A stretch of DNA of 64,000 bases. Source: Nocardioides sp. InS609-2 (GTDB taxonomy: Bacteria; Actinomycetota; Actinomycetes; Propionibacteriales; Nocardioidaceae). The translations under genes were made by a program, and so were the position numbers. The stretch is from positions 3,534,001-3,598,000 of the forward strand of contig NZ_CP060034.1 of NCBI RefSeq assembly GCF_023208195.1, written 5' to 3'. This document shows, one piece after another, positions 20,901 through 41,410 of the stretch. The notes beneath the pieces are model-generated. The model worked only from the letters and a program-made list of their open reading frames with translations, had not been told where the DNA came from and searched no databases. Numbering within the stretch: the stretch's first letter is position 1; every line of letters begins with the position of its first letter.

Positions 20901-21547
20901 GCCGGTTGATGCTCCTCGCCGCGACTGGCCTCGCACGCGAGGTGCTCGTCATGGAGCGCGACCGGGGAGCCCACGACACGATCCGGGTGCTCGACGACGA
21001 CCCGGCTCTGTGGGGCACTGAGCTCGACGGCGTGCCCGTGGTGGGCGGCCTCGATCTCGTGGGCGAGTACGCCGACCACGAGCTGCTGGTCTGCGCCGGC
21101 CGGGGCACCTCGCGCCGCGCCATCGTCGAGCGGCTAGCCGACCTGGGCGTCGGTGCCGGCCGCTACGCCACTGTCGTCCACCCGCGCGTCCACCTGCCCG
21201 ACGGATGCCGGATCGGTCGCGGCAGCATCGTGCTCGAGGGTGTCGTGATGACCGCGGCGGTCGACGTCGGCGAGCACGTCGTGGCGATGCCGCACGTGAC
21301 CCTGACCCACGACGACGTCGTCGAGGACTTCGTGACCCTCTGCGCGGGGGTGAACCTCGGCGGGAGAGTGCGGGTCCGCACTGGTGCCTACCTCGGCATG
21401 GGCAGCTGCGTCCGCGAGGACGTCGTGGTCGGCGAGGACGCCGTGCTCGGCATGGGGGCAGCGCTGACGACGGGGCTGCCGGCCGGAGAGACCTGGGTGG
21501 GTGTTCCCGCTCGTCGCATCAGCATCGCAGTGGAGGTGGAGAGATGA
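20897..21547 (+). CDS. NeuD/PglD-like sugar O/N-acyltransferase
   Basis: 216 aa. The N-terminal Rossmann-like subdomain (MSRLMLLAATGLAREVLVM) that binds the substrate is followed by left-handed beta-helix hexapeptides (GCRIGRGSIVLEGVVMTAAV, then DVGEHVVAMPHVTLTHDDVV). The conserved histidines in PHVTLTHDD fit the PglD/NeuD catalytic position. GTG 20897 overlaps the upstream stop (GTGA). It probably acetylates the amino sugar made by the preceding aminotransferase. Confidence 0.87.
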   Translation: MSRLMLLAATGLAREVLVMERDRGAHDTIRVLDDDPALWGTELDGVPVVGGLDLVGEYADHELLVCAGRGTSRRAIVERLADLGVGAGRYATVVHPRVHLPDGCRIGRGSIVLEGVVMTAAVDVGEHVVAMPHVTLTHDDVVEDFVTLCAGVNLGGRVRVRTGAYLGMGSCVREDVVVGEDAVLGMGAALTTGLPAGETWVGVPARRISIAVEVER

Positions 21548-22647: not shown

Positions 22648-22652
22648 CACCC

Positions 22653-23912: not shown

Positions 23913-25051
23913 GCCGGGTCCTGCTGGTGAGCCACGAGGCATCGCGCACGGGGGCGCCGCGGATCGCTGCGCTCGTCGCCCACTGCCTGGTCGAGCAGGG
24001 CCACGACGTCAGGGTGGTGTCCCAGCGGCCGGGACCCCTCCTGCCCGACTTCGCCCACGTGGCGCCGACGCGTGTCGAGCCGCTCTGGCGCGTCCGACGC
24101 CGGCTGTGGTCACGCCCGGGGAGGTTCCGGGACCCCGTGGCCAGGCTGCTGGAGCTCACTGTCGCGCTCGTGACCGTCCTGATGGCTCGACCCGACATCG
24201 TCTACGTCAACTCGTCGTCGGCTGCGGCGTACGTCCGCGTCGGTCGCCTGCTGGGACACCCGGTGGTGCTGCACGTGCACGAGTCCGGCGAGGTCCTGGG
24301 TGGGTTCCTGGGGCGCGTGGGGATCCGCGGTCTGCCTGCGCCTGACGTGCTGCTGGTGGCCTGTTCGCCAAGTGTGGAGGGCGACCTTCTCGATGCCGGG
24401 GCCGCAGACGTCCACCTGCTGCTATCCATCCCAGACGAACACCTCATCCGCCGCCTCACGGCCGGTCCTGCCGAGGCGAGGGACGGTCACGAGGTCGTGG
24501 TCGGCAGCTGCGGAGCGGTGGAGCACCGCAAGGGCGTCGACCTCTGGCTGCGTGCCGCGCGCAGCGCGATCGCCGGCGAGGGTGGCGCGCGGCTGCGCTT
24601 CGTCTGGGTCGGCGACGGCGATCCGCCGGTCGAGGCCGCCGGTCAGCCGCAGGTCGAGTTCGCGGGAGCGTCGGCCAACCCGTACGCCGCCATGCGCGGC
24701 TTCGACATCATGACCCTGCCGTCGCGCGACGACCCGTTTCCGCTGGTGGTGATGGAGGCGATGATGCTGGCGAAGCCGGTCGTGGCCTTCGACGTCGGGG
24801 GTGTGGCTCACCAGCTCGGTGACACGGGCGTGCTGGTCGAGGCGGGCGACGTCGAGGCCTTCGCGCGCAGCGTGGGCGATCTGGCCGCAGATCCCGCACG
24901 TCGTGCGTCCCTGGGGCGCGCGGCCCGGAGACGGGCCGAGCAGCTCTTCTCCCGTGCCGCCTTCACAGCGGGCCTCACGGCCGTGATCCGGCAGGCACCA
25001 CTCGGTGGCCGACAACGACTTCGCCATGACCCGTCTGGAGGCCCCGCGTGA
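23909..25051 (+). CDS. Glycosyltransferase family 4
   Basis: 380 aa. The N-terminal GT-B domain begins VLLVSHEASRTGAPRIAALV, a pattern shared with GT4 enzymes acting on surface glycans. The C-terminal nucleotide-sugar domain carries VGSCGAVEHRKGVDLWLRA and the E-x7-type motif DDPFPLVVMEAMMLAKPVVA followed by DVGG. ATGA overlap at the start and GTGA overlap at the end place it in the coupled operon. Donor and linkage are unknown. Confidence 0.88.
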   Translation: MSRVLLVSHEASRTGAPRIAALVAHCLVEQGHDVRVVSQRPGPLLPDFAHVAPTRVEPLWRVRRRLWSRPGRFRDPVARLLELTVALVTVLMARPDIVYVNSSSAAAYVRVGRLLGHPVVLHVHESGEVLGGFLGRVGIRGLPAPDVLLVACSPSVEGDLLDAGAADVHLLLSIPDEHLIRRLTAGPAEARDGHEVVVGSCGAVEHRKGVDLWLRAARSAIAGEGGARLRFVWVGDGDPPVEAAGQPQVEFAGASANPYAAMRGFDIMTLPSRDDPFPLVVMEAMMLAKPVVAFDVGGVAHQLGDTGVLVEAGDVEAFARSVGDLAADPARRASLGRAARRRAEQLFSRAAFTAGLTAVIRQAPLGGRQRLRHDPSGGPA

Positions 25052-26391
25052 CCGGCGGCGCACACGTCCTGATCATCGTGCAGAACCTGCCCGTGCCTCT
25101 CGACCGGCGGGTCTGGCTCGAGTGCCTGGCCCTGCGGGCGCGAGGCTACGACGTCAGCGTGATCTGCCCGAAGGGACCGGACGACCCGGCCCGGCAGGTC
25201 ATCGAGGGCGTCCACGTCTACAAGTACGCTCCCACCCCCGAGGCATCGGGCCTGGCGGGCTACGCCCTGGAGTTCATCTACTCCTGGCTGCGCACGGCCT
25301 GGCTGTCCCTGCGGGTCTGGCGCAGGCAGCGCTTCGACGTCCTACAGGCCTGCAACCCGCCCGACACCTACTGGCTGCTCGCCCGTCTCTGGCGACGTCG
25401 TGGAGTGCGATTCCTCTTCGACCACCACGACCTGAACCCGGAGCTGTTCCTGTCGCGGTTCGGCCAGCCCTCCGGGTTGCGTGAGCGCCTCGAGCTGCGG
25501 GCGCTCACCTGGCTCGAGCGGCGCACCTTCCGCACGGCCGACCGCGTGACGTCGACCAACGAGTCCTACCGCCAGGTGGCGATCCACAGGGGCGGCCTCG
25601 ACCCGCGGCACGTCACCGTGGTGCGCAGTGGTCCTGACACGCGCCAGATGCGGCCGGTCCTCGCGACCCCCACCGCGCCGGCCGAGCGGGAGACCTTCAC
25701 ACTCGCCTACGTCGGGATCATGGGGCCTCAAGATGGCGTCGACACGGTCCTCCACGTCATGGACGAGCTCGTGCACCGGCGCGGCCGCACCGACGTTCGG
25801 GCCGTGCTGATGGGCTTCGGTGACTGCCTCGCCGCCCTGCGGCGCGAGTGCAGCGAGCTCGGCCTCGACGACGTGGTCGAGTTCACCGGACGCGTCGACA
25901 AGGTGGCGATGGCGGGTCACCTGAGCAACGCCGACATCGGTGTGTGCCCCGACCTCAAGTCGCCGCTCAACGACGTCTCGACGATGAACAAGACCATGGA
26001 GTACATGGCCTACTGCCTTCCCTCGGTCTCGTTCGACCTTGTCGAGACCAGGGTCAGCGGTGCCGACACGGTCCTGTACGTCGACTCGGGAAACCTCACC
26101 GCGTTCTGCGACGCCGTCGAGCGGCTGCTCGACGACGACGACCTGCGTGCCGACATGGGCCTGCGAGCCCGGCGTCGGGTTGCCGAGCAGCTCGACTGGA
26201 AGGCCCAGGCCACGTCGTACGTCAGGGTCATCGACGAGCTGAGTGGCCTGGCGACGGTCGCCACGGCGGCCCCGGCGGAGGAGACGTCTCACGACGAGCT
26301 GGGCCGTGCGTACGTCGACTTGTACGACGATGTCGCCCTGGCGTCGTACGTCCGGAACCGTTCGCGAGTGCCTTCGCAGGACGCCGGATGA
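25048..26391 (+). CDS. Glycosyltransferase family 4
   Basis: 447 aa. It starts MTGGAHVLIIVQNLPVPLDR from GTG 25048, overlapping the previous stop. The DHHDLNPELFLSRFG segment and ERRTFRTADRVTSTNESYR are characteristic of a GT4 subgroup in actinobacterial and cyanobacterial polysaccharide clusters. The C-terminal domain has FTLAYVGIMGPQDGVDTVL and MNKTMEYMAYCLPSVSF, the modified E-x7-E region. It has about 40 C-terminal residues beyond the fold. The acceptor is unknown. Confidence 0.9.
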   Translation: MTGGAHVLIIVQNLPVPLDRRVWLECLALRARGYDVSVICPKGPDDPARQVIEGVHVYKYAPTPEASGLAGYALEFIYSWLRTAWLSLRVWRRQRFDVLQACNPPDTYWLLARLWRRRGVRFLFDHHDLNPELFLSRFGQPSGLRERLELRALTWLERRTFRTADRVTSTNESYRQVAIHRGGLDPRHVTVVRSGPDTRQMRPVLATPTAPAERETFTLAYVGIMGPQDGVDTVLHVMDELVHRRGRTDVRAVLMGFGDCLAALRRECSELGLDDVVEFTGRVDKVAMAGHLSNADIGVCPDLKSPLNDVSTMNKTMEYMAYCLPSVSFDLVETRVSGADTVLYVDSGNLTAFCDAVERLLDDDDLRADMGLRARRRVAEQLDWKAQATSYVRVIDELSGLATVATAAPAEETSHDELGRAYVDLYDDVALASYVRNRSRVPSQDAG

Positions 26392-27569
26392 GAGGCGTCG
26401 GCGTGGTCCTCTTCTCGGCGCAGGACTACTGGTACCACAACCGCGCGCACTCCGACGTCCAGCTGGCCCGCGCGCTGTCGATCGACCGCCCGGTGCTCCT
26501 CGTCAACAGCCTGGGCATGCGGATGCCAAGGCGCGGGACCACCAGCCAGCCGCTGCGCCGGGTCGCACGCAAGGTCGGCAGCACCCTCCGGGCACTGCGC
26601 CGACCTGAGCCCGCCTTCCCGAAGCTGTACGTGATGACGCCGGTCAGTGTGCCGGTGTTCGCCAATCCGCGCCTGAGCCGTCTCAACGCCCTGTCGGTGC
26701 GGCTTCAGGTGCGGGTTGCGTCGCGGCTCGTCGGCATCCGCGTCCCCGACGTCCTCATCACGCTCCCGACCGCCTGGGAGGTCGCGCGCCGTCTCCGGAC
26801 GCGCACCGTGGTGGTCAACCGCTCCGACCGCTACTCCGCCCTGCCCGAGGCCGACACGACACTCATCGCCGGCCTCGAGGCGTCGATGCTCGAGGCGTGC
26901 GACGCGGCGGTCTACGTCAGCCGGGAGCTGATGGCGGACGAGCAGCCACTGGTGTCGGCGGGCTCGGGGCGCGCCCTCTTTCTGGGCCACGGTGTCGATC
27001 TCGACCACTTCGCTCCCCAGCCCGGGGGCGCGGAGCCGGCCGACCTCGCGCCGGTGCCGCACCCGCGCGTCGGGTTCTTCGGTGGCATCGACGACTACGT
27101 CGTCGACCTCGACCTCATCAGCCGCCTCGCGGTCGAGCTCCCCGACGTCTCTGTCGTGCTCGTGGGGGCGGCCACCTGTCCCCTCGACGAGCTCGTCGCG
27201 CTGCCCAACGTCCACTGGCTCGGGATGAAGCCGTACGCCGAGATCCCGGCCTACGGCGCGGGTTTCGACGTTGCTCTCATGCCGTGGCTCCAGAACGACT
27301 GGATCCGCTTCTGCAACCCGATCAAGACCAAGGAGTACCTCGCACTCGGCCTGCCGGTAGTGACCACGCCCTACCCGGAGGCGGAGGCACATGCCGACGT
27401 CATGGCCGTCTCTGGCTCCTCCGACCACTTCGTCGCCCTCGTGCGCGAGGCCGTCGACGGCCACCCGGCAGGCACCCCCGAGCTTCGTCGAGCGGCAGTC
27501 GCTGGTGACTCCTGGGACGCTCGGGCAGACGTGCTCCGCGCGATCCTCGACCAGCAGGAGGTGGGCTGA
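26388..27569 (+). CDS. Glycosyltransferase (GT4/GT1-like)
   Basis: 393 aa from ATG 26388, overlapping the upstream stop. It begins MRGVGVVLFSAQDYWYHNRA; the SAQDYWYHNRAHSDVQLAR pattern is found in a group of polysaccharide-locus glycosyltransferases. The C-terminal domain has PRVGFFGGIDDYVVDLDLI, NVHWLGMKPYAEIPAY and NPIKTKEYLALGLPVVTT, the nucleotide-sugar site. No membrane segment. The stop overlaps the asparagine synthase start (TGATG), so it belongs to the same transcript. Confidence 0.86.
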   Translation: MRGVGVVLFSAQDYWYHNRAHSDVQLARALSIDRPVLLVNSLGMRMPRRGTTSQPLRRVARKVGSTLRALRRPEPAFPKLYVMTPVSVPVFANPRLSRLNALSVRLQVRVASRLVGIRVPDVLITLPTAWEVARRLRTRTVVVNRSDRYSALPEADTTLIAGLEASMLEACDAAVYVSRELMADEQPLVSAGSGRALFLGHGVDLDHFAPQPGGAEPADLAPVPHPRVGFFGGIDDYVVDLDLISRLAVELPDVSVVLVGAATCPLDELVALPNVHWLGMKPYAEIPAYGAGFDVALMPWLQNDWIRFCNPIKTKEYLALGLPVVTTPYPEAEAHADVMAVSGSSDHFVALVREAVDGHPAGTPELRRAAVAGDSWDARADVLRAILDQQEVG

Positions 27570-29428
27570 TGTGTGGCGTCGCCGGCATCCGGCGCTTCGA
27601 CGACCAACGGGTCGACGAGGCCGCGCTTCGACGGATGATGCACGTGCTCGCGCACCGCGGGCCCGACGACGAGGGTTTCCTCATCGAGGGTCCGGTCGGC
27701 ATTGCCCACACCCGGTTGTCGATCATCGACCTGGAGGGCTCGCCGCAACCGATGCAGACCCCCGACCAGCGCTACACGCTGACGTTCAACGGCGAGATCT
27801 TCAACTACCGCGAGCTGCGTCAGGGCAGTGACTACCCGTTCACGACCAGCGGAGACACCGAGGTCGTGTTGGCCACCGTGGCCCGGCACGGGCCGCACGC
27901 CGCGAGCCGTTTCGTCGGACAGTTCGCGTTCGGCATGTTCGACCGTCACACCGGTCGCACGTGGCTGGTCCGCGACCGCGTGGGAGTGCTCCCTCTCTAC
28001 TACTACCTCGATGCGCAGCAGCTCGTCTTCGGCTCCGAGATCAAGGCACTGCTAGAGGTGCTCGGCGACCGGGTCGCCCTCGACGAGACGCAGCTGCGCG
28101 GCTACCTCAAGGCGCGCGCCATACACGCGCCCAACACGCTGTTCAAGGGCATCCGCAAGGTGCCGCCGGGCCATGTCGTGGAGGTGTCCGCTCGCGGCGA
28201 GGTGACCGTCAGACCCTACTGGCGCCTCCCCGATCCTGACGACCTCGAGCCGTGCTCGCCCGGGCAGGCGATCGACCTCGTCGAGGACACCTTGAAGCAG
28301 GCCATCGACTCCGCCCTCGTCGCCGACGTACCCGTGGGTGCCTATCTGTCCGGGGGAGTCGACAGCAGCTTGATCGTCGCGCTCGCCGACGGCGCGCGCC
28401 GCAGGGCGGGCAGCACCGGCCCCATCGCCACCTTCACGGCCGACTTCGGCGACCCGCGGGTCGACGAGACACCACACTCCGACCTGGTCAGCAGTGTGTT
28501 CCGCACCGACCATCACCGCGTGCGGATCCAGCCCGGCGACTTCCGCGGCATGTGGGAGCACCTGACCTGGCATCGGGACGCTCCGGTGAGCGAGCCTGCT
28601 GACATCGCCGTGGCCCAGCTCGCCAAGGCAGCTCGGCAGCACGTGAAGGTCGTGCTGTCCGGTGAGGGCAGTGACGAGCTGTTCGGCGGCTACCCGAAGT
28701 ACCGGTACGCCGGCGCCACGACGCTGGCCAACCGTCTCCCGGCGCGGGTGCGCGGCCGCGGGATGCGCACGCTCGAGCGGGCCCTGCCGTCGAGCCGGGG
28801 GAAGCTGCGGATCGCGGTGCGTGCGCTCGCCGCGCAGCCTCACGCGCGCATGGAGGACTGGTTCGCACCGTTCACCGACTACGAGATCGATGCTCTGCTC
28901 GGCGAGCGCAGCCCTGCCGTACGCCGCGACGTGCCCCATCGCGACGCGATCGACCTGATGGGTCGGATGGACCTGGACACTTGGCTGCCCGACAACCTGC
29001 TCGAGCGCGGCGACCGGATGTCGATGGCATCTTCTCTCGAGCTGCGTCCGCCGTTCCTGGACCACCGCCTGGTTGACCTGGCCTTCCGCCTGCCGAGCTC
29101 GGTGAAGGTGCGCGAGGGGCAGACGAAGTGGGTGCTGAAGCAGGTGGCGCTGCGCCATGTGCCGGAGCAGATCGTGTTCCGGCCCAAGGTCGGCTTCCGG
29201 GTGCCGATCGACGCATGGTTCCGCGGGGAGCTGCAGGAGCTCGCTCGTGACCTGCTGCGTGGACCCGACAGTCTCGTCGATTCGCTCATGGATGCGCGGG
29301 TCGTGGGCGGCATCCTCGACGACCATGCCCGAGGCCGTCGCGACGAGGAGATCCGTATCTGGACCCTGCTGTCGCTAGAGGTCTGGGGCCGGCGATTCCT
29401 GGGGTCCCGGGCTGCCACGGCAACCTGA
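27569..29428 (+). CDS. asnB: Asparagine synthase (glutamine-hydrolysing) homologue in the polysaccharide operon
   Basis: 619 aa. The N-terminal Ntn glutaminase domain has the catalytic Cys2 (MCGVAGIRRF), HRGPDDEG and FNGEIFNYREL. The C-terminal synthetase domain has the ATP pyrophosphatase loop YLSGGVDSSLIVAL near residue 258 and SGEGSDELFGGYPKY. All key residues are present, so it should be able to transfer glutamine nitrogen to a carboxylate. AsnB homologues in O-antigen loci (such as WbpS) are linked to uronamide formation, so amidation of a uronic acid in this polymer is a reasonable inference; a general asparagine synthase is the alternative. It is the last gene of the coupled operon. 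Confidence 0.9.
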   Translation: MCGVAGIRRFDDQRVDEAALRRMMHVLAHRGPDDEGFLIEGPVGIAHTRLSIIDLEGSPQPMQTPDQRYTLTFNGEIFNYRELRQGSDYPFTTSGDTEVVLATVARHGPHAASRFVGQFAFGMFDRHTGRTWLVRDRVGVLPLYYYLDAQQLVFGSEIKALLEVLGDRVALDETQLRGYLKARAIHAPNTLFKGIRKVPPGHVVEVSARGEVTVRPYWRLPDPDDLEPCSPGQAIDLVEDTLKQAIDSALVADVPVGAYLSGGVDSSLIVALADGARRRAGSTGPIATFTADFGDPRVDETPHSDLVSSVFRTDHHRVRIQPGDFRGMWEHLTWHRDAPVSEPADIAVAQLAKAARQHVKVVLSGEGSDELFGGYPKYRYAGATTLANRLPARVRGRGMRTLERALPSSRGKLRIAVRALAAQPHARMEDWFAPFTDYEIDALLGERSPAVRRDVPHRDAIDLMGRMDLDTWLPDNLLERGDRMSMASSLELRPPFLDHRLVDLAFRLPSSVKVREGQTKWVLKQVALRHVPEQIVFRPKVGFRVPIDAWFRGELQELARDLLRGPDSLVDSLMDARVVGGILDDHARGRRDEEIRIWTLLSLEVWGRRFLGSRAATAT

Positions 29429-29928: not shown

Positions 29929-31473
29929 ATGTCCCCCATCCCCTCGCACAGACGACTGCCACGACCAAGAATGTCCAGGATCCTTGGCGCCGCTGTCGCA
30001 CTCACCGCACTGATCGGCCTGCCGGTCCTCGTCTCGAACACGGCACTGAACCCGGTGGCCAACTCGACGGCATACGGCATGTGGTCCGACTCCGTCGTGC
30101 CTGCTGTCCCGGCAGAGAACGACGACGACTCGGTCACGCTCGGCGTCGAGTTCACCACCTCGACCCCTGGAGCCGTCACCGGCATCCAGTTCTACGGCGA
30201 CTCCGCGAACCGCGGCCCGCACACCGGCCAGCTGTGGAGCGACACCGGTAGCCGCCTCGCCTCGGTGACCTTCCCCGCTTCCTCGGATGCAGGCTGGCAG
30301 ACCGCGAGCTTCTCCCAGCCGGTCGAGATCCAGCCCGGAGTCAACTACACCGCGTCCTACCTGGCGCCCAACGGCAACTACGCCATCCAGGAGCACGCCT
30401 TCGATCACAACGAGACCTTGAGCACCGAGGCCCTCACTGCGCTGCGCGGCACGTATGCGTACGGCGGCAGTAGCAGCCGCCCGACCAGCACGTGGCACGG
30501 CTCGAACTACTACGTAGATGTGGTCTTCCAGCCCAAGGGCTCGACCAAGTCGGCTCCTACGACGTCGGCTCCTACGACGTCGGCTCCTACGACGTCGGCT
30601 CCTACGACGTCGGCTCCTACGACGTCGGCTCCTACGACGTCGGCTCCTACGACGTCGGCTCCTACGACGTCGGCTCCCACGACGTCGGCTCCGGCTAGTG
30701 GCGCATTCCCGAACGCGTCGAACACAGGCGTGCCCGACGGTGTGACGCTGTCGGCCTACGGCGGCCCGATGACCATCACGAGCGCCGGCACCGTGATCGA
30801 CGCCAAGCAGGTCAACGGCACCCTGACCATCCAGGCGCCCAACGTGACCGTTACGCGGAGCAAGGTCAACGGCACGGTCTACATCGAGAACAACGGTTCA
30901 CTCACGATGTCCGACTCCACCGTTGACGGGGGTACCTCGTCGAACTCGGCTGTCGGCCAGTACAACCTGACCCTCCGTCGCGTCGAGATTGTCGGGGCGC
31001 GAGCCTCGGTGGGCTGCGCCGGCAACTGTGACATCCAGGACTCCTGGATCCATGGCCAGTACATGCAGCCGGGCAGCGACTGGCACGGTGACGGGTTTCT
31101 GTCCAACGGTGGTAACAACATGACGTTGCGCCACAACACGATGGCGTGCGACTCCCAGGTGAGCGGCAATGGTGGCGCGTGCTCGGCAGCTCTGGCCGCC
31201 TACGGCGACTTTGAGCCGATCACGAACATGACCGTGGACAACAACCTGCTCGTGTCGAGCCCGGCCGGTTACTGCATGTACGCCGGGTACGACCCGGCCA
31301 AGCCGTACGGCATGGCCGCGGCGAACGTGACGGTGACGAACAACGTCTTCGCTCGCGGCACCAGCGGCAAGTGTGCCGTCTACGGACCGGTGACGGCTGT
31401 CGCGCCGTCCGGTAACGGCAACGTGTTCAGCGGCAACGTCTGGGACGACGGCGGCGCTGTCCCTGCCGGCTGA
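29929..31473 (+). CDS. Secreted beta-helix protein A: DUF4082, (SAPTT)9 linker, right-handed beta-helix
   Basis: 514 aa. A basic N-terminus and hydrophobic stretch (ILGAAVALTALIGLPVLVS) act as export signal. Residues about 50-205 form a DUF4082 module (VTGIQFYGDSANRGPHTGQL then WSDTG, DAGWQTASF, NYYVDVVFQ). A linker of nine SAPTT repeats follows. From FPNASNTGVP to the end is a beta-helix domain of about 250 residues with NGTLTIQAPNVTVTRSKVNG rungs, the DSWIHGQYMQPGSDWHGDGF motif and six cysteines in paired positions. No anchor. Binding or cleavage of polysaccharide is inference from fold and location; no lyase catalytic set can be assigned. First of four tandem paralogues. Confidence 0.88.
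   Translation: MSPIPSHRRLPRPRMSRILGAAVALTALIGLPVLVSNTALNPVANSTAYGMWSDSVVPAVPAENDDDSVTLGVEFTTSTPGAVTGIQFYGDSANRGPHTGQLWSDTGSRLASVTFPASSDAGWQTASFSQPVEIQPGVNYTASYLAPNGNYAIQEHAFDHNETLSTEALTALRGTYAYGGSSSRPTSTWHGSNYYVDVVFQPKGSTKSAPTTSAPTTSAPTTSAPTTSAPTTSAPTTSAPTTSAPTTSAPTTSAPASGAFPNASNTGVPDGVTLSAYGGPMTITSAGTVIDAKQVNGTLTIQAPNVTVTRSKVNGTVYIENNGSLTMSDSTVDGGTSSNSAVGQYNLTLRRVEIVGARASVGCAGNCDIQDSWIHGQYMQPGSDWHGDGFLSNGGNNMTLRHNTMACDSQVSGNGGACSAALAAYGDFEPITNMTVDNNLLVSSPAGYCMYAGYDPAKPYGMAAANVTVTNNVFARGTSGKCAVYGPVTAVAPSGNGNVFSGNVWDDGGAVPAG
30550..30684 (+). repeat. 15-bp tandem repeat, nine copies, encoding SAPTT
   Basis: Unit TCGGCTCCTACGACG. Eight identical copies and a ninth with one T-to-C change. DNA identity beyond what protein conservation needs shows recent slippage expansion. 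All three forward frames stay open through it, which creates spurious reading frames. Confidence 0.95.
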
Positions 31474-31494
31474 CGGACCAACAGCTTGAAAGGC

Positions 31495-31534
31495 GCCGGG
31501 TGGTGATCGGGATGGTCCCGGATCACCGCCCGGC
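31495..31534 (+). terminator. Strong stem-loop after beta-helix gene A
   Basis: GCCGGG-T-GGTGATC-GGGA, loop TGG, TCCC-(G)-GATCACC-G-CCCGGC: about 18 pairs including one wobble, with one bulged G. It lies 22 nt after the stop at 31473. No U-tract, as is common in high-GC actinobacteria. Confidence 0.6.
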
Positions 31535-31600
31535 ACCACGCCGTGCCTCGTCCCGCGAGCGGCAACGCGAGCCGACAGGGATCTGGCGATTCCTGACGGC

Positions 31601-31616
31601 TACCCAATTTTGGGTA
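31601..31616. promoter_or_regulatory. 16-bp palindrome upstream of beta-helix gene B
   Basis: TACCCAA-TT-TTGGGTA, a perfect inverted repeat, 110 bp before the start of gene B. Its right end overlaps TACGAT, a possible -10 box (31615-31620). A near copy stands 113 bp before gene C. Confidence 0.6.
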
Positions 31617-31710
31617 CGATCCCGCACTGACGACCAGGCACCCCGTCGGTCCGGGCGCTGCCGCCCTCAGCTCCACCGGGTGCCCTGTCCCCTAGGTAAG
31701 GCCAATCCCC

Positions 31711-33090
31711 ATGATCCACCCCCGTACCTTCCAGCGTGTCCTGATGCCTGTGCTCCTCCTCGCGGCCCCGGTCGGAGTGCTTGCGGGCACACCGGCGCAG
31801 GCAGGTCCCGGTCCCGTCGGCAACTCAGAGCGAGCCTCCGCGGAGACCAAGACGGTCTACAAGGAGACGTTCGAGTCCGGCACGAAGAGTTGGTCGACCA
31901 ACGCCCGCGCCAAGCTCACCACCGTCGCTCACGGACGCAAGTCCGACCAAGCTGCACGCCTGCGCACCAGTGGTCCCGGGGCCGCGGTCGCACGCACCAG
32001 GGTCGCGGCCAGCGACGCCGTCGGCGCGAACCAGGCCGTCACCGGTTGGCTGAAGTCCACCCGCGGCACCGTCCGCGCCGCACTCGTGGTGCGCGAGGTC
32101 GAGCCCGCCACCGGGCAGCTCCTGACGTCGGCGCGCGACCGGGTCAAGGCCCGCGACAGCTGGGGTCGCGCCAAGGTCGAGGTGGTCCGCACGTCTGCCA
32201 CCTCCGTCATCAAGGTGGCGGTCCGTACCAAGCAGGGTCGCGGCGACCGCGTCCTGCTGGACGACGTGCACCTGCGGCGGACGAAGTCGACCACCACCCC
32301 GCCCCCGCCGCCGAGCAACAACCCGTTCCCGAACGCGTCGAACACGGGCGTGCCCGACATCGCACTGGCGACGTACGCCGGTCCCATGACCGTCACGACT
32401 GCCGGAGCGGTGATCGACGGCGCGCAGGTCAACGGCACGTTGACCATCAAGGCGCCCAACGTGACGATGACGCGGACCAAGGTCAACGGCACCGTCTTCA
32501 TCGAGGACAACGGTTCGCTGACGATGTCTGACTCAACCGTCGACGGCGGGAGGTCAGAGAACTCCGCGGTCGGTCAGTACAACCTGACTCTGCGTCGCGT
32601 GGAGGTCGTTGGTGCACGTGCCTCGGTGGGCTGCTCCAGCCAGTGCGACGTCCAGGACTCCTGGCTGCACGGCCAGTACATGCCCGCGGGCAGTGACTGG
32701 CACGGCGACGGGTTCCTGAGCAACGGAGGCCACGCCATGACGCTGCGCCACAACACCCTGGCCTGCGACTCCCAGCCGACGGACAACGGGGGCGCATGCT
32801 CGGCGGCCCTCGCCGCGTACGGCGACTTCGACCCGATCACGAACCTCACGGTGGACAACAACCTGTTCGTGTCGAGCCCAGCCGGGTTCTGCATGTACGC
32901 CGGCTACGACCCCGCCAAGCCGTACGGCAAGTCCGCGGCCAACGTGAAGGTGACGAACAACGTCTTCGCGCGGGGCGCCAGCGGCAAGTGCGCCGCGTTC
33001 GGTCCCGTGACCGCGGTGGCGCCATCCGGCAACGGCAACGTGTTCAGCGGCAACGTCTGGGAGAACGGCGTGGCCATCTCGGCCCCGTAG
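31711..33090 (+). CDS. Secreted beta-helix protein B: jelly-roll-like module, polyproline linker, right-handed beta-helix
   Basis: 459 aa. Signal peptide MIHPRTFQRVLMPVLLLAAP with an AQA-type cleavage site. Residues about 45-190 form a TFESGTKSWSTN-type module ending RVLLDDVHLRR, resembling carbohydrate-binding jelly-roll (CBM4/9-like) domains. A short TTTPPPPPSNN linker leads to FPNASNTGVP and the beta-helix, closely similar to genes A, C and D (QDSWLHGQYMPAGSDWHGDG) with the six conserved cysteines. The upstream region is homologous to that of gene C (palindrome plus a CGGGTGCCCTG block). The function is unknown; secreted glycan binding or processing is inferred. Confidence 0.88.
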   Translation: MIHPRTFQRVLMPVLLLAAPVGVLAGTPAQAGPGPVGNSERASAETKTVYKETFESGTKSWSTNARAKLTTVAHGRKSDQAARLRTSGPGAAVARTRVAASDAVGANQAVTGWLKSTRGTVRAALVVREVEPATGQLLTSARDRVKARDSWGRAKVEVVRTSATSVIKVAVRTKQGRGDRVLLDDVHLRRTKSTTTPPPPPSNNPFPNASNTGVPDIALATYAGPMTVTTAGAVIDGAQVNGTLTIKAPNVTMTRTKVNGTVFIEDNGSLTMSDSTVDGGRSENSAVGQYNLTLRRVEVVGARASVGCSSQCDVQDSWLHGQYMPAGSDWHGDGFLSNGGHAMTLRHNTLACDSQPTDNGGACSAALAAYGDFDPITNLTVDNNLFVSSPAGFCMYAGYDPAKPYGKSAANVKVTNNVFARGASGKCAAFGPVTAVAPSGNGNVFSGNVWENGVAISAP

Positions 33091-33205
33091 GACGGCCGGT
33101 GGTCAGCTCGCCGCAGAGCGGGTGACGATCTGCGCGGGGCGTCCTCGAGACAGGGCCTGAGGCGAGAATTCTTTACTCGCGTGATTGACCGTTCACCGGT
33201 GGGCA

Positions 33206-33221
33206 TACCCCATTTTGGGTA
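33206..33221. promoter_or_regulatory. 16-bp palindrome upstream of beta-helix gene C
   Basis: TACCCCA-TT-TTGGGTA, one mismatch from perfect, the counterpart of the 31601-31616 site. It is at the same distance from its gene and is followed by TACCGT as a possible -10 box. Confidence 0.6.
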
Positions 33222-33318
33222 CCGTTTCTGCTGTTCTCAAGGAGCGCTCGCCGGTGTTATGCGTGGACGGATGTCCCTCGTCCGGGTGCCCTGCCCCCTA
33301 CGCAAAGGTCGACTCGCC

Positions 33319-34806
<1,488 letters not shown>

Positions 34807-34865
34807 CCGTGTCGGCGAGCTCAGGTGGCGCAGGCCAGAACTGCTACAGTCCACGGTTCGGGCGG

Positions 34866-34880
34866 TCAGGGGGGCCCTGA
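34866..34880 (+). promoter_or_regulatory. Short hairpin upstream of beta-helix gene D
   Basis: TCAGGG-GGG-CCCTGA, a 6-bp stem with a 3-nt loop, 30 bp before the start. TACAGT at 34845-34850 upstream of it could be a -10 box. Weak evidence. Confidence 0.3.
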
Positions 34881-34910
34881 TGCCGTCCGGGTTCTACCCC
34901 AGGAATGGAC

Positions 34911-36287
34911 ATGGACCACAAGATCCTCCGCTCTCGGGCCACCCCCACATGGGTGGCGCTCGCCCTCTCGATGACTGTCAGCCTCACCGGCCTGGTGAGC
35001 ATAGGTCTCGTCGCGGGTGCGTCTGCCGGCGTCGTACCGCCCTTGGACCGCGATGGTGTGACTGCGCGCGCTCACGATCCGGAGTACGAGCGGGACCGCT
35101 CGTCACGAGACACCGAGCGGGGGATCCGCTTCCAGGCCGCAGCCAGATCGAGGGTGACCGCGCTCCGCTACTACCGCGTCCGTGGTGACACGGGGCGGCA
35201 TGTTGCTCGCGTGTGGTCGGACTCGGGCAAGTCGCTCGGCACGCTTGCCATCCCGTCCACCGGGGAGGTGGGGTGGCAGAAGGCGTCCTTCGCCTCGCCG
35301 GTGAAGCTCGAGGCGGGGAGCACGTACGCCGCATCCTTCTCGGTACGCGCGGGAGTTCCCTACGCCGTTCTCCGCGACGGCACGGCCGGCGGAGGATCCC
35401 GCTACAGCGTCCTGGGTGGCGCCCACGCACTGAAGGGTCATTACCCGGCCAAGCTGATGAAGCACGCGCAGTTCCTGGTCCGGCCGGTGCTCGGAAAGGT
35501 GACGACGAAGACCCCGTCATCGTTCCCCGACGCCGCCAACACCGGCGTGCCCGGCGGAGTGTCGCTGTCGGCGTACACCGGAACCTCGACGATCCGCGCC
35601 GACGGCGCCGTGATCGACGGCAGGCAGGTCAACGGCAGGCTCTCCATCCAGGCCGAGAACGTCGTCATCAAGCACTCGCTCGTCAACGGCAACATCGAGA
35701 TCAGGGAGGGGGGCTCGCTCACGATCTCCGACTCGACGGTCGACGGTGGCACGTTCGACGGCTCGGCCGTCGGGCAGTACAACGTCACGATGCGTCGCGT
35801 CGAGGTCGTCGGGGCCCGGCAGTCGCTCTCGTGCAACCAGAACTGTGACATCCAGGATTCCTGGCTGCACGGTCAGTACATCCAGCCCGGCAGCGACTGG
35901 CACGGCGACGGGTTCGTCTCCAACGGTGGCTCCGACATGCTCGTCCGCCACAACACCTTGGCGTGCGACTCGGAGACCTCAGGCAACGGTGGGTGCTCCG
36001 GCGCCGTCGCGCTCTTCGCGGACTTCGACCCGATCACCGACGTCACCATCGACGCGAACCTGTTCACCGCCGGGCGCGCGGCGTACTGCCTGTACGGCGG
36101 CTACGACACGGGCAAGCCATACGGCGACAACCCGACGAACGTCGTGATCACGAGCAACGTGTTCCAGCGGGGCGCCAACCGCAAGTGCGCCGCGTTCGGT
36201 GCCGCGGCGGCGGTGGCCGACTCAGGAGAGGGCAACGTGTTCGAGGGCAACGTGTGGGACGACGGCAAGAAGGTCCGTCAGCCCTGA
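34911..36287 (+). CDS. Secreted beta-helix protein D: DUF4082-like module, no repeat linker, right-handed beta-helix
   Basis: 458 aa. ATG 34911 is preferred over the in-frame ATG 34905 because AGGAA at 34901-34905 is correctly spaced only for the former. The hydrophobic signal WVALALSMTVSLTGLVSIGL is followed by a divergent DUF4082-like module (ALRYYRVRGDTGRHVARVWS, GWQKASFASPVKL). The beta-helix begins FPDAANTGVP almost directly after it. This is the most diverged copy (NCDIQDSWLHGQYIQPGSDW kept; LVRHNTLACDSETSGNGGC). It converges with a glycosyltransferase gene, overlapping by 10 bp. Confidence 0.87.
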   Translation: MDHKILRSRATPTWVALALSMTVSLTGLVSIGLVAGASAGVVPPLDRDGVTARAHDPEYERDRSSRDTERGIRFQAAARSRVTALRYYRVRGDTGRHVARVWSDSGKSLGTLAIPSTGEVGWQKASFASPVKLEAGSTYAASFSVRAGVPYAVLRDGTAGGGSRYSVLGGAHALKGHYPAKLMKHAQFLVRPVLGKVTTKTPSSFPDAANTGVPGGVSLSAYTGTSTIRADGAVIDGRQVNGRLSIQAENVVIKHSLVNGNIEIREGGSLTISDSTVDGGTFDGSAVGQYNVTMRRVEVVGARQSLSCNQNCDIQDSWLHGQYIQPGSDWHGDGFVSNGGSDMLVRHNTLACDSETSGNGGCSGAVALFADFDPITDVTIDANLFTAGRAAYCLYGGYDTGKPYGDNPTNVVITSNVFQRGANRKCAAFGAAAAVADSGEGNVFEGNVWDDGKKVRQP

Positions 36288-37246
36288 GTCTTCCCCTTGG
36301 CGGCTGCTGGGGCGACGGTGTGCGGGCCGGGACGGTCCGTCATCCGTCGCGGGCTCAGCAAGGTGGCGAGGGCCGCCCTGCTGGTGGCCCGGCCCATCGC
36401 TGCCCGGCTTGCCTCGCGCAGGACGACCACGGCCCAGAAGAGAGTGCCCGCGACGAACCCGTTGCGACGACGGTGCAGACGCACCCTGTTGGCGACCAGC
36501 AGCGACCACAGGCCTGGCGAGCGCGTGGACTCACCCTGCAGGTGGGTCGCGCGTGCTGTCGGGACGTACACCGTGCGGTAGCCGTGGTCGCGCGCTCGAA
36601 GGCCGTACTCCGTCTCCTCGGAGTAGAGGAAGAACGACTCGTCCCAGGTGCCGCACGCGTGCCAGCACTGCGCCGAGATGAGCTGCGTGGAGCCCTCGGC
36701 CCAGTCGGCGAAGCCTAGGGCGTCGTACTCCCGAGGATCGGTGACGAGCTCACCCCAGCGCGGCCGGCGTCCAGCGCGGACGGCACCGATGGTGGCGTCG
36801 CCCAAGGCGCGCAGCACCGTGGGTTCGCGCCGCAGTGAGAAGTGCAGGTCGCCATTCGAGTCGTCGAGCCGTGGCACTGCGATGCCGACGCCGGGTGCCT
36901 GGAGAGCTTCCAGCAGCAGCCCCACCGAACCGGCGGCGAGTCGCACGTCGGGGTTGAGCACGAGGACGGCGCGGTGGGGAGGAGCTGCGGCGACGCCGGC
37001 GTTGAGTCCCGCGGCGTAGCCAGCATTGCGGCCCATGTCGACGATCGTGCAGCCGGGGGAGAGGCGGACGGCCACGTCGGCGCTGCCGTCGACGGACGCG
37101 TTGTCACTGACGATGAGCTGCCACGTCAGACCCGACAGGCCCTCCGGCAGGGACTCGACCAGGGCAGGCAGGACATCGCTGCTGTTGAAGGCGACGACCA
37201 CGACCGCGACATCGATCACGGGTGTCGGAGTGCCGGGGGAGTCCAT
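36278..37246 (-). CDS. Glycosyltransferase family 2 (rhamnosyltransferase-like)
   Basis: 322 aa. GT-A fold: VAVVVVAFNSSDVLPALVES at the N-terminus, IVSDNASVDGSADVAV, and the VLNPDVRLAAGS segment containing the N-x-D metal site (DxD equivalent) near residue 90. FFLYSEETEYGLRARDHGYR is typical of dTDP-rhamnosyltransferase-like GT2 enzymes. The start at 37246 (MDSPGTPTPVID) has GGTGGGAG upstream; the longer frame over the promoter region is rejected. The sugar donor is not certain; no rhamnose biosynthesis genes are in this window. Confidence 0.9.
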   Translation of the reverse strand: MDSPGTPTPVIDVAVVVVAFNSSDVLPALVESLPEGLSGLTWQLIVSDNASVDGSADVAVRLSPGCTIVDMGRNAGYAAGLNAGVAAAPPHRAVLVLNPDVRLAAGSVGLLLEALQAPGVGIAVPRLDDSNGDLHFSLRREPTVLRALGDATIGAVRAGRRPRWGELVTDPREYDALGFADWAEGSTQLISAQCWHACGTWDESFFLYSEETEYGLRARDHGYRTVYVPTARATHLQGESTRSPGLWSLLVANRVRLHRRRNGFVAGTLFWAVVVLREASRAAMGRATSRAALATLLSPRRMTDRPGPHTVAPAAAKGKTQG

Positions 37247-37289
37247 GGGTTGCTCCCACCTCGTTCGCGCGATGGCCAGAACGTCGAGG

Positions 37290-37295
37290 ATTCTA
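37290..37295 (-). promoter_or_regulatory. Candidate -10 box for the GT2 gene
   Basis: TAGAAT on the minus strand, 43 bp upstream of the GT2 start, close to consensus TATAAT. No clear -35. Confidence 0.4.
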
Positions 37296-37396
37296 GCCCG
37301 AACCGGTTGACTCGGGCCGGCGAACGGCCTGGATCCCTTACGGTGGGCGGATGAACTGCGCCCACCGAGTGTCACGGTCCAGATGGACCTGAGACT

Positions 37397-38506
37397 GTGA
37401 CGGATGTCGTCATGGCCCTGGCCCATCGCACCTGGGCAGACGGGATGGCCGTCGGCTACGCCTACTCTCCTGACCGCATCAGCGTTCTGCTCCGCGACGA
37501 CTCGACCATCCCCTTCGTGCTCCTGGCCGATCCCGTGCGCAGTCACCTGGGCCGGGTCAAACGTGCGCGCTGCCCGTCGCCAGCCTTCTCCACGGACCCG
37601 AGCCGCCGGCTCGTCCACCCCTACCGCTGGCGCCGCGGCGAGCCCACGACGATGAACGAGGCCGTTCCCGTCTACCGGCGTCTCGACCGCTGGCTGCGCG
37701 CGCAGGTCGAGGCGACGGAAACCGTCCTTGTGACCTCACATCCCGTCTTGGCCGCCGTAGCCGACCGGGGCGCCTGGCGCGACATCAGCTACTACGCCTG
37801 GGACGACTTTCGGGGAATTCCCGGCTTCTTCGACCTGTACGGCTGGGCCCACGAGACCCTGGCTGCCGCGGACGTCAACGTCGTTGGCGTCACCGAGAAG
37901 ATCGTGCAGAACGTCGGCGCGCGGCGCCGTACGGTGGTGCCCAACGCCATCCTCGCCTCCGACTACGACGACGTCGACTCCGTGCCGGCCTGGTTCACCG
38001 AGGTGCGTGGCCGGGTGGCGTTCTACGCTGGCAGCCTTCAGGGTCGCGTCGATGTCGACGCCCTAACGACGCTCGCGCGAGACCTCGGATCCGACTGGAC
38101 GATTGTCCTGGTCGGTCCCATGCAGGACCCGGAGTGGTTCCGGGGGCTGGCGGCCGAGCCCAACGTGCTGATCCACGAAGCCGAGCCGCGGTCGTCGATC
38201 CTGGCCATGATGGCCGCGGCCGACGTCTGCCTGGTGCCGCACCTCGACGGCACCGGGTCCATGAGCCCGCTGAAGATCTACGAGTACCTGGGCGCGGGGG
38301 CCGCCGTGGTGGCCACCGACCTCGAAGCCATGCGCGGCCTGTCGCCCCGCTGCCTGCTCGTGCCAGCGGGTGGGTCGCTCACACCAGCGGTGCTCGAGGC
38401 GGCAGCCCTGCCCGCCGCCACACCGGAAGAGGTGGCGGCGTTCCGCGCCGAGCACGACTGGAGCGCGCGGTACGCCGCGTGGCGTCAGTCGGTCCTGGGC
38501 TACTGA
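37397..38506 (+). CDS. Glycosyltransferase (GT4-like)
   Basis: 369 aa from GTG 37397; an ATG at 37412 is an alternative. GT-B fold: the C-terminal half has RVAFYAGSLQGRVDVDALTT, WTIVLVGPMQDPEWFRG and SPLKIYEYLGAGAAVVATD with the conserved acidic E of the nucleotide-sugar site. The N-terminal half (ISYYAWDDFRGIPGF) matches a group of glycosyltransferases that work with surface polysaccharides. It is divergent from the GT2 gene and overlaps the flippase gene end-to-end by 7 bp. Confidence 0.85.
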   Translation: MTDVVMALAHRTWADGMAVGYAYSPDRISVLLRDDSTIPFVLLADPVRSHLGRVKRARCPSPAFSTDPSRRLVHPYRWRRGEPTTMNEAVPVYRRLDRWLRAQVEATETVLVTSHPVLAAVADRGAWRDISYYAWDDFRGIPGFFDLYGWAHETLAAADVNVVGVTEKIVQNVGARRRTVVPNAILASDYDDVDSVPAWFTEVRGRVAFYAGSLQGRVDVDALTTLARDLGSDWTIVLVGPMQDPEWFRGLAAEPNVLIHEAEPRSSILAMMAAADVCLVPHLDGTGSMSPLKIYEYLGAGAAVVATDLEAMRGLSPRCLLVPAGGSLTPAVLEAAALPAATPEEVAAFRAEHDWSARYAAWRQSVLGY

Positions 38507-40008
38507 GCCTCGACAGCCGGAGCACGGCGCAGCTGGGTGGTGCGGTGGTAGGCCTTGAGGCCCCAGCGCAGCATCAGGAGCGCGTACACGACCGAGCCGG
38601 CCGCACCACCGGCAAGGAGCGCCAGCCACGGGTTGTCGGGCATTGCGCCGACCCAGCTCGCGACCAGCCCGGCTGCCACTGCTCCGCCGATGGGCGGCAG
38701 GGAGGTGCGGAACATCGGGACGACCGGCAGCGACGTCATCCGGCGACAGGTCGAGAGGTTCCACGGGATCACCACGACGGCCAGCACGACGATGGTCACC
38801 CATGCCGCCGAGACGCTGCCCCAGCGCGGCACGGTCAGCCACATGGCCGGCAGCACGAGCAGTAGCCGCGCGAGCTGGGAGCGCATGTACTCCTTGGCGT
38901 AGCCGCCGGCGATCAGCACGTCGGCGACCAGCGACATCACGGCTTCGAAGGCCTTCGTGATCGCGATGACGCTCAGAATGGCCGCGGCCGCCGACCACTT
39001 GTCTCCGTAGAGCACCCGCACGAGGTACGGCGCCAGGCCGGCGAGGATGGCCGAGACCGGCCAGAAGACCCCGGCGATCATGTCGAGGCAGCTGGCCAGG
39101 AGGCGACCGACGAGCTCGCGGTCGTCGCGGATCTTGGCGAAGAGCGGCAGACCGACGTTGACGAGGACCGGCAGGAACAGGCCGAGCGGCCAGGCAGCGA
39201 TCGTGGCGGCGAGTGTGTAGACGCCGGCCTCGTGCGGCCCCAGCAGCCGGCTGATCACGAAGACGTCGACGCCCATGAGCATGCTGCCGATGAGGCTGGC
39301 TCCGACGAGCGGGATGCCGAGCCGCATGATCTCGCGGGCCGCGTCGCGGTCCCACCCCGGCCGGTAGCGCTTCTTCGCCGCCACGAGAAGGGCGATGACG
39401 ACGAAGGCCTGGCCGCCGACCCGGGACCAGGCCAGGGCCATCTCGCCCAGTCCCTGAAGGGCGAGGGAGATGAGCAGGCCGCTGGACACCAGGAGCCCGA
39501 CGAAGTCGAACACGACCCGCTGGCCCTGCCGGAACTCACGGATGAGGAGGCCCACCGGCACCGCGGCGGGGCCGCACAGGACGAGGTAGAGACACATGAC
39601 CCGAAGGGCGCCGGTGGCGTCGGGGGCACCGAACGCCCTGGCGATGAACGGCGCGAGCAGCGCGAGGACGACGCCAAGGCCGGTGAAGTTGATGAGGGCG
39701 AAGGTCACCGCGGTCGAGGCGATGCGGTCGATGTCGTCGCGGGCCCGAACCACTGCAGCACCGATGCCCATGTCGGCGAAGTTGCCCATGAAGGTGAACA
39801 CCACCAGGGCAACGGCGAAGAGCCCGAACTCGTTGGGCGTCAGCAGGCGGGCGGCGACGATGCCGGTCAGGAGACTGGCCATCCGGATCGTTAGCGCCCC
39901 GCCGGTGCTCCACGCGGTGCTGCGCAGCACGCTGCGCCGGAGGCCGCTCGCTGGGGGGCCAGCACCGTCGGGGGGTGCCGAGGCCTCCCCGGGACGCTCG
40001 TCATCCAT
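38500..40008 (-). CDS. Wzx-type flippase (polysaccharide transporter, MOP superfamily)
   Basis: 502 aa with about 12-14 hydrophobic segments. The N-terminal region STAWSTGGALTIRMASLLTG with RLLTPNEFGLFAVALVVFTF is typical of Polysacc_synt_3/Wzx proteins. It moves the lipid-linked repeat unit across the cytoplasmic membrane. It is in an operon-like order with the Wzy-like (8-bp overlap) and Wzz-like genes, the complete Wzx/Wzy-dependent assembly set. The Wzx label is by family and context. Confidence 0.9.
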   Translation of the reverse strand: MDDERPGEASAPPDGAGPPASGLRRSVLRSTAWSTGGALTIRMASLLTGIVAARLLTPNEFGLFAVALVVFTFMGNFADMGIGAAVVRARDDIDRIASTAVTFALINFTGLGVVLALLAPFIARAFGAPDATGALRVMCLYLVLCGPAAVPVGLLIREFRQGQRVVFDFVGLLVSSGLLISLALQGLGEMALAWSRVGGQAFVVIALLVAAKKRYRPGWDRDAAREIMRLGIPLVGASLIGSMLMGVDVFVISRLLGPHEAGVYTLAATIAAWPLGLFLPVLVNVGLPLFAKIRDDRELVGRLLASCLDMIAGVFWPVSAILAGLAPYLVRVLYGDKWSAAAAILSVIAITKAFEAVMSLVADVLIAGGYAKEYMRSQLARLLLVLPAMWLTVPRWGSVSAAWVTIVVLAVVVIPWNLSTCRRMTSLPVVPMFRTSLPPIGGAVAAGLVASWVGAMPDNPWLALLAGGAAGSVVYALLMLRWGLKAYHRTTQLRRAPAVEAQ

Positions 40009-41410
40009 CGCCGACGTCGCCGTTCGCGCTGGCCAGCTTCCGCACGTCGTCGCGCGTCATCCGCCAGGCCGCGCCGGACAGGCCGATGAGGAGGAACGTG
40101 GCGCCCGCTGCCATCGGGAACCCCCAGGCGTCGAACGTCGCGTAGCTCATCGCGATGCCGACCAGTCCCGCGCTCAGCGCGAGGCCGAGGTGCTGGTGCT
40201 CGGGGGAGGTGGCGTGTCGCTTGGCGTACCTCGCCGCGTAGGTCGAGGCGATGAAGAGGAACAGGGTGATGACCAGGCCGACCGCACCGAGCTCGACGAG
40301 GTTCATCAGGAACTGGTTGTCGAGGGTGCGGTAGTAGGCGGGCATGAAGGTCGACGCTCCACGACCCAACCACGGGTGGCCGGCGTAGATCCCGAGGATC
40401 TGGCCGTAGTCGGATGTGCGCCCGGACACGCTGGGGTCGCCGAGCAGGCTGGTGAACAGCGAACGGATCGTGCCGACCAAACCGGGGAAGGTCGCGCGCA
40501 TGGCCACCACCACCGCGGGGAACAGCACCAGGGACCACGCGCGGCGGTTCCATGACCAGCCCGCGAAGAGGATGAGGAGGCTCGCACCCAGCACAAGGAT
40601 CCCCGAGCGGGACACCGACATCGGCACGGCGAGCGACAGCAGGGCGACCGGCGCGTAGTCGTACCAGCGGCGGACGCGGTACAGCGCCTGATGCAGCGCA
40701 AGGGGGAACAGGGCGGCGAGCACGACGCCGTACTCGATGGGATGTGTTGCGGTGGCCTGCACGCGGTTGAGGCCGGAGCGCACGAGCGACCCGATCTCGC
40801 CGTTGATCGTCAGCCCGGGGATGCGGATGTACGACGCGAGGTTGGTGCCGGTGACGAACTGGATGACACCAACCAGGCCGATGACCGCGGCGAGCCAGAC
40901 GATCGTCGTCACGAAGCGGTCGAGCTGGCGCCAGGTGCGGAGTCCGTCACAGAGAATGAGGGCAACACCCAGCCAGCCCGCCACCGACAGCAGCCCGCGA
41001 ATGCCGGCCAGCTGGGATTTTTCCTGGAGCTCGGAGACGGAGACCGGCACCAGCGAGTAGACGCCGTCAGTGACCTGATGGACGTCGGCGGGGCGCACCC
41101 AGCCGACGCTGACTCCGTTGGCCCAGCTCAGCAGGACGGACACGGCCAGGAAACCCAGCGCCAGGTACACGGGCGAGACGTGGGACCTCGAGCCCAGCCC
41201 GCCCAGCCGGCTGCACAGCCACAAGATCAGGAGGAAGATCCCCCACAGGGTCGCCGGCGTGCCGGCCGCGCCGATGGGGCCGAACACGAGGCCGGCCGGG
41301 ATGAGCGTCAGTAGGCAGACGTAGATGGTGAGCAGGGTGGTGCCCGGCAAGCGCCTTGGCGCGGGCCGGACAGGCCGCTTGACCGCAGGTGACGGGGCGG
41401 TCGCGCTCAT
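40001..41410 (-). CDS. O-antigen ligase/polymerase family protein (Wzy-like)
   Basis: 469 aa, about 11-12 membrane segments (for example TLLTIYVCLLTLIPAGLVFG, GIFLLILWLCSRLGG). The large extracytoplasmic loop near residues 300-350 contains SLLGDPSVSGRTSDYGQILG and HPWLGRGASTF, the G-R-x(4-6)-W/G-x-G features of the Wzy_C domain. It probably polymerises repeat units outside the membrane. A ligase role is less likely in an actinomycete locus with Wzx and Wzz-like partners. Overlaps the genes on both sides by 4-8 bp. Confidence 0.88.
   Translation of the reverse strand: MSATAPSPAVKRPVRPAPRRLPGTTLLTIYVCLLTLIPAGLVFGPIGAAGTPATLWGIFLLILWLCSRLGGLGSRSHVSPVYLALGFLAVSVLLSWANGVSVGWVRPADVHQVTDGVYSLVPVSVSELQEKSQLAGIRGLLSVAGWLGVALILCDGLRTWRQLDRFVTTIVWLAAVIGLVGVIQFVTGTNLASYIRIPGLTINGEIGSLVRSGLNRVQATATHPIEYGVVLAALFPLALHQALYRVRRWYDYAPVALLSLAVPMSVSRSGILVLGASLLILFAGWSWNRRAWSLVLFPAVVVAMRATFPGLVGTIRSLFTSLLGDPSVSGRTSDYGQILGIYAGHPWLGRGASTFMPAYYRTLDNQFLMNLVELGAVGLVITLFLFIASTYAARYAKRHATSPEHQHLGLALSAGLVGIAMSYATFDAWGFPMAAGATFLLIGLSGAAWRMTRDDVRKLASANGDVGDG

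Follow-up and report, generated by a model that had tools for sequence, protein, structure and literature searches.

A tandem array of beta-helix proteins with differing N-terminal modules in a polysaccharide locus of Nocardioides sp. InS609-2

The array and its domains

We analysed a window of 64,000 nucleotides of Nocardioides sp. InS609-2 (contig NZ_CP060034.1, positions 3,534,001 to 3,598,000). The strain belongs to the same genus as Nocardioides currus, and its genome forms one contig of 4.52 Mb. The window holds four consecutive genes, here called A to D, which lie inside a polysaccharide locus and encode proteins with apparent export signals, a common C-terminal beta-helix domain (the C-domain) and differing N-terminal modules. 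The features of the array are listed below in window coordinates; lengths are in amino acids (aa), and CBM stands for carbohydrate-binding module.

29929..31473, + strand: gene A, 514 aa; apparent signal, DUF4082, (SAPTT)n linker, beta-helix domain
Protein residues 56-196 of A: DUF4082
30549..30692, + strand: linker repeat of A, 15 bp x 9.6
30706..31470, + strand: beta-helix domain of A, 255 aa
31711..33090, + strand: gene B, 459 aa; apparent signal, CBM-like jelly-roll module, polyproline linker, beta-helix domain
32326..33087, + strand: beta-helix domain of B, 254 aa
33319..34806, + strand: gene C, 495 aa; apparent signal, CBM-like module, (PT)n linker, beta-helix domain
33917..34035, + strand: linker repeat of C, 6 bp x 19.8
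34039..34803, + strand: beta-helix domain of C, 255 aa
34905..36287, + strand: gene D, 460 aa; apparent signal, DUF4082, no linker, beta-helix domain of separate lineage
Protein residues 59-154 of D: DUF4082
35523..36284, + strand: beta-helix domain of D, 254 aa

The GTG at 33319 was picked as the start of gene C by comparison with B, the listed open reading frame (ORF) opening at 33181. The C-domain of gene C was the query in most searches, and domain residues are numbered here from its first residue.

The architecture given in a preliminary description of this DNA was borne out at each point. The four genes share a direction and a C-terminal beta-helix of 254-255 aa, with identities of 89% for A and C, 84% for B and C, 81% for A and B and 60-64% for D and the others. 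DUF4082 (PF13313), a domain of unknown function that had been named as the start of A and D, scored 157.1 and 80.1 bits respectively against a Pfam cut-off of 28.4. B and C gave no Pfam family above cut-off and no Pfam CBM; their N-terminal modules are 49% identical, and the predicted model of that of B is a jelly roll, as had been proposed, which in fold comparison resembles CBM61, CBM4, CBM22 and CBM16 (for CBM61 and CBM4, Foldseek E of about 6e-4 and TM-score by target of 0.43-0.46). The module had no sequence match among solved structures. The linkers differ as described, being (SAPTT)n in A, TTTPPPPP in B, (PT)n in C and absent from D, and a hydropathy scan placed behind the charged N-terminal stretch of each protein a hydrophobic 13-mer of mean hydropathy 2.1-3.0, consistent with the export signals that had been suggested for all four.

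The DUF4082 of A (window 30073-30543) gave a weak sequence match to a eukaryotic PHR domain (3no8, E 0.0037), and the model of D also matched 3no8 in Foldseek (E 2e-3); DUF4082 may be a PHR-like beta sandwich. A third type of front end, a short C..PTG...Y..CRF segment before the linker, is common to the N-termini of three homologues, at L056 and L071 (stand-alone chromosomal genes) and L005 (a prophage gene); loci, genomes and proteins are referred to by L, G and P numbers.

Predicted models of the B and D domains showed a right-handed parallel beta-helix. The structural comparison upheld the fold that had been claimed and left its affinities broad, as lyases, epimerases, hydrolases, tailspikes and the adhesin PfbA were matched at similar Z; it favoured none of the roles that had been suggested (coat, adhesin or polymer processing specific to this polysaccharide). 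Sequence searches gave little: Pfam Beta_helix (PF13229) stayed below its cut-off of 25.9 bits with 12.3-13.4 bits (E 0.06-0.13) in A, B and C, with D unlisted; the domain of gene C had no match in a sequence search of solved structures; and a profile whose alignment held 39 of 64 domains found none of 177,635 PDB sequences at E <= 1. Conservation within the family is marked. Across 110 aligned domains each of the six cysteines noted earlier is conserved in 89 to 95, and two histidines, the pair H116 and H127 in domain numbering, are near-invariant (109/110 and 105/110), bacterial and phage copies included. Five domain matches scoring less than 145 bits, incomplete second copies from L039 and L046, were excluded from the tree and the motif counts, and P0001, P0018, P proteins matching fewer than 200 model positions and two duplicates were also excluded from the tree. 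In the L039 and L046 proteins the second, partial domain stands ahead of the full one.

The surrounding locus is as follows.

10784..12262, + strand: priming sugar transferase (PF02397), left part of the locus
12891..17648, + strand: large secreted-type protein with DMFA2_C, Big_5/Big_7 and four DUF4082 stretches
17705..29428, + strand: nucleotide-sugar genes (Gfo/Idh/MocA, SDR, two DegT), four GT4-type glycosyltransferases, asnB
36278..42285: GT2 (-), GT4 (+), wzx (-), wzy (-), wzz-like (-)

The array thus lies, as had been stated, within a wzx/wzy locus, whose order is priming transferase, DMFA2/DUF4082 protein, nucleotide-sugar genes, glycosyltransferases, asnB, array, GT2, GT4, wzx, wzy and wzz-like gene; the last scored 18.0 bits, below its cut-off of 25.5. 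By inspection, an ORF for a NeuD/PglD-like acyltransferase stands between the two DegT genes (window 20890-21547), which suggests an acylated amino sugar in the polymer. DMFA2 homologues also occur near beta-helix genes in L054 and L151.

Polysaccharide linkage and phage copies

The C-domain was found in 42 of 196 sampled genomes of the genus (E <= 1e-10) and in 6 of 296 genomes of a phylum sample (E <= 1e-15, at most 9 candidates per genome being scored), the window's own genome included in both counts. The 42 genomes hold 76 domains, of which 40 fall into 18 clusters of at least two within 10 kb, in which some members are not head to tail; 18 of the 42 carrier genomes have at least two domains within 10 kb. 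In N. currus (three genes) and in G028 (two genes), arrays occupy the same slot, with the order asnB - array - GT2 - wzy - wzz.

The proposed link to polysaccharide loci was examined in 40 homologue regions of up to 20 kb each from 35 other genomes of the genus (genomes G006, G076, G112, G116, G121 and G154, and six further places elsewhere, lay outside the test), with 20 arbitrarily placed control regions, each from a different one of the 35 genomes, and the window's polysaccharide genes used as tblastn queries. A homologue of a glycosyltransferase, wzx, wzy, wzz or priming-transferase gene was present in 34/40 regions and in 0/20 controls (Fisher p 5.5e-11, a value to be read with the partial dependence of the regions through species kinship in mind). 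Outside the genus, such genes were found in 6/8 regions from six genomes and in 0/4 controls from two of those genomes. The association of the beta-helix genes with polysaccharide loci therefore holds. The six regions of the genus without such genes, of which L054 has sugar-nucleotide-type genes only and L056, L057, L071, L075 and L076 have no match to the panel at all, show together with the prophage and viral copies that the link is not exclusive.

A fifth copy in the genome, 61% identical and outside the DNA covered by the preliminary description, belongs to a prophage that also has tape-measure, minor-tail and endolysin genes. The first start codon of this beta-helix gene overlaps the end of the endolysin gene by 4 bases, and its product has an apparent export signal. 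A further 11 domain genes were found on 10 viral contigs of IMG/VR; by inspection, most of these viral copies have a signal or anchor, a short cysteine-containing segment and a linker rich in proline, serine and threonine.

L005:1213-2265 and L006:5581-17286 (genome 1250581-1263335): prophage
L098, L099, L100, L102, L104-L107, L110, L112: viral contigs with the domain, L099 with two genes side by side

Endolysin-family matches were found near the copies in the prophage, L098 and L100, that is, at 3 of the 8 loci with at least one neighbour scanned. The scanned neighbours of L106, L107 and L110 (two each) and of L099 and L112 (one each) had no lysis annotation, one further L106 neighbour was a tail protein, and L102, L104 and L105 lay outside the scan. 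On inspection only, L098 and L099 appear to carry tape-measure genes. PHROGs gave no match for the prophage gene, L098, L106 or L110, and weak matches to phrog_15511 (function unknown) in gene C of the window, L105 and L107, which span the linker and the first 40-45 domain residues. Two candidates were dropped: a small ORF after the prophage copy, holin-like by eye, had no PHROGs match in the scanned stretch L007:16-258, and L111, picked by pattern, had no domain match. A tblastn search of 50,697 phage records gave no match at E 1e-3, which leaves the prophage of this genome and the IMG/VR contigs as the basis of the phage link. The phage rows fall at several points of the tree, next to one cellular row (L061) and several metagenomic proteins; a tally among labelled groups gave 2 changes, with 1 also possible, and fixes neither the number nor the direction of transfers.

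Domain mixing and a candidate operator

Twelve proteins from four species were compared for the kinship of their two ends. The N-terminal modules of the array pair with those of other species: that of A with N. houyundeii P0017 and G028_9620 (41%), that of B with N. houyundeii P0016 (49%), and that of D with N. currus P0005 (42-48%), N. houyundeii P0008 (41%) and G028_8013 (44%). The nearest C-domain was in the same genome for 7/12 (A, B, C, both A-type proteins of N. currus, P0008 and P0016) and in another species, with the same N-terminal type, for 5/12 (D, P0005, P0017, G028_8013 and G028_9620). The clearest case was N. houyundeii, in which P0008, with a D-type front, and P0016, with a B-type front, have C-domains that are 99% identical, although the C-domain of P0008 is only 59-62% identical to that of D despite their common front. 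Likewise, two neighbours in G066 have 97% identical C-domains behind unrelated fronts, and the C-domain of A, a DUF4082 protein, is nearest to that of the CBM-like C (89%). Near-identical C-domains under unrelated N-terminal modules within one genome indicate that domains have been swapped or converted, and for some members these comparisons are best explained by gene conversion or a swap of domains. The alike pairs of one N-terminal type in N. currus could be plain duplicates. In the tree the A, B and C domains fall in one group, not starred, and the D domain joins the D-type protein of N. currus in a starred group (100/98). Synonymous (dS) and non-synonymous (dN) divergence of the A-C domains of the window was 0.30 and 0.065, and dS for the N-terminal modules of B and C was 0.76.

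Upstream of B and C stand two near-palindromes that make a candidate operator.

31601..31616, + strand: near-palindrome TACCCAATTTTGGGTA, ending 95 bp before the start of B
33206..33221, + strand: near-palindrome TACCCCATTTTGGGTA, ending 98 bp before the start of C

Their common form, TACCC-N6-GGGTA with an AT-rich centre, occurs in the whole genome only at these two places. With the motif arms defined from the window alone, 4 sites were found outside it in 44 kb of beta-helix upstream sequence, at three loci (L044, L046 and L048) in three other genomes. Six genomes had a density at which 0.025 sites would be expected (P of three loci 2.5e-6); the denser control regions, which held 1 site in 400 kb, would give 0.11. 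All of the sites in the 783 kb of case regions (4/4) stand before beta-helix genes. A coarser count gave 5/63 genes against 3/520 control stretches, and 3/61 genes when B and C were left out (p 0.018). Most homologues have no exact site, including A, D and the arrays of N. currus and G028, and the exact form seen in the window was absent from the loci from elsewhere among 116 loci. A stricter pattern, TACCCMAWWTKGGGTA, had 11 sites in 196 genomes, five before beta-helix genes and six near unrelated genes, and its reversed form had none in the same 196; as the pattern was written after those five sites had been seen, only its rarity elsewhere is independent.

A NarL-type site was considered, the consensus given in PMC4886647 being heptamers of TACYYMT, and was rejected because the left arms, TACCCAA and TACCCCA, differ from it at the last base. 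A scan for sigma-70 promoters gave no useful result. A stretch common to B and C shortly before their starts, GGGTGCCCTGYCCCCTA (window 31680-31695 and 33287-33301), is possibly a promoter or a second site. A copy of the near-palindrome with a single mismatch (L113:4705-4720, genome 3476705) stands immediately ahead of an ORF that has RTX-like repeats and an apparent signal, and may be due to chance.

Possible function and alternatives

The most likely reading, to which we give about an even chance, is that A to D are exported proteins that process the polymer of the surrounding wzx/wzy locus. The proteins would dock through their N-terminal modules on the polymer or envelope, the CBM-like or DUF4082 modules and the proline- and threonine-rich linkers placing the helix on different glycan or envelope sites. 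The shared beta-helix would do the work of cutting or editing the polymer, most probably as a lyase, hydrolase or epimerase, with the two near-invariant histidines in use in its groove. A single DNA-binding protein probably acts at TACCC-N6-GGGTA as the switch for B, C and a small number of genes in relatives, recombination would occasionally pass C-domains between front ends, and phages may use their exported-looking versions to remove polymer of this kind at lysis.

The nearest working model, by analogy, is RbmB, the Vibrio polysaccharide (VPS) lyase of Vibrio cholerae (PDB 9ozl), which according to PMC11637428 breaks down its producer's own VPS. Both have a right-handed parallel beta-helix, although no sequence relation is detectable. 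An RbmB-like lyase would be expected to be coded in the locus of the polymer on which it acts: A to D lie in a polysaccharide locus, and their action on its polymer is putative. RbmB is encoded by a single gene and is not known to stand in an array or to have a CBM-like or DUF4082 module. A precedent for a beta-helix enzyme coded in a polysaccharide cluster is AlgG, and PMC4444821 gives DPHD as the catalytic motif of the AlgG/AlgE mannuronan C-5-epimerases, a motif absent from the sequences of A to D, whose modules also differ.

The chief alternative, a lesser though real possibility, is that these are non-catalytic matrix or adhesin proteins, with the helix as a rod for binding the polysaccharide or surfaces and the modules as additional grips. 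PfbA and biofilm-matrix proteins would be the parallels. The near-invariance of two histidines (109/110 and 105/110) exceeds what a passive rod would appear to need, and a copy that overlaps an endolysin gene suits an enzyme better than it does an adhesin.

It is unlikely that the proteins are phage-derived or anti-phage surface proteins that alter or mask a polysaccharide to which phages bind, the prophage copy being a lysogenic-conversion gene. The apparent export signal of that copy, the 11 genes on 10 viral contigs, the tailspike-like fold, the mixing of domains and the scatter of phage rows in the tree would suit such an origin, but selection in the A-C domain comparison is purifying rather than diversifying, one syntenic slot is kept in three species and none of the 50,697 phage records matches at E 1e-3. 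Phage tailspike depolymerases (6f7d and others), a class of virion-attached trimers, offer a further comparison: A to D read as single chains with apparent Sec signals, and these signals argue against membership of that class, from which the prophage copy also differs in overlapping an endolysin gene. Depolymerases are also mentioned in a paper on a Curtobacterium prophage (PMC9862828). For the phage copies an analogous role may be that of mycobacteriophage LysB (PMC5707550), an envelope-directed extra of the lysis cassette; LysB is an esterase and no homology is claimed. Its fold differs from that of the beta-helix domain.

Ordinary recent tandem duplication of a secreted protein with no special role, present in the locus by chance, is highly improbable: the A, B and C domains do form one group (not starred) and the two most alike genes of N. 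currus share an N-terminal type, but the nearest kin of the A, B and D modules are in other species, at least two domains lie within 10 kb in 18/42 carrier genomes and the linkage count was 34/40 against 0/20.

Within the literature searched, which left most subscription journals outside, no function was described for the beta-helix family, nothing joined Nocardioides, exopolysaccharide and beta-helix, or WcaM, colanic acid and beta-helix, and DUF4082 was mentioned in one paper. What is new here is the swapping or conversion of C-domains, the prophage and viral copies and the TACCC-N6-GGGTA site before B and C. The polysaccharide linkage makes the function of the family testable, the array shows domain mixing at work, and the palindrome is a handle on a putative regulator. 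The family may also yield enzymes that act on actinobacterial glycans, which have been little studied, and the phage copies hint at a way for such phages to handle the polysaccharide layer of their hosts. More tentatively, and less probably than not, actinobacterial polysaccharide loci and their phages may share an undescribed enzyme toolkit, a polymer-cutting beta-helix domain that hosts keep in arrays, with a DNA switch of their own in some species, and pass between targeting modules by recombination, and whose exported phage copies would open the glycan at lysis; if so, several enzymes of one specificity would act at different places on the same glycan.

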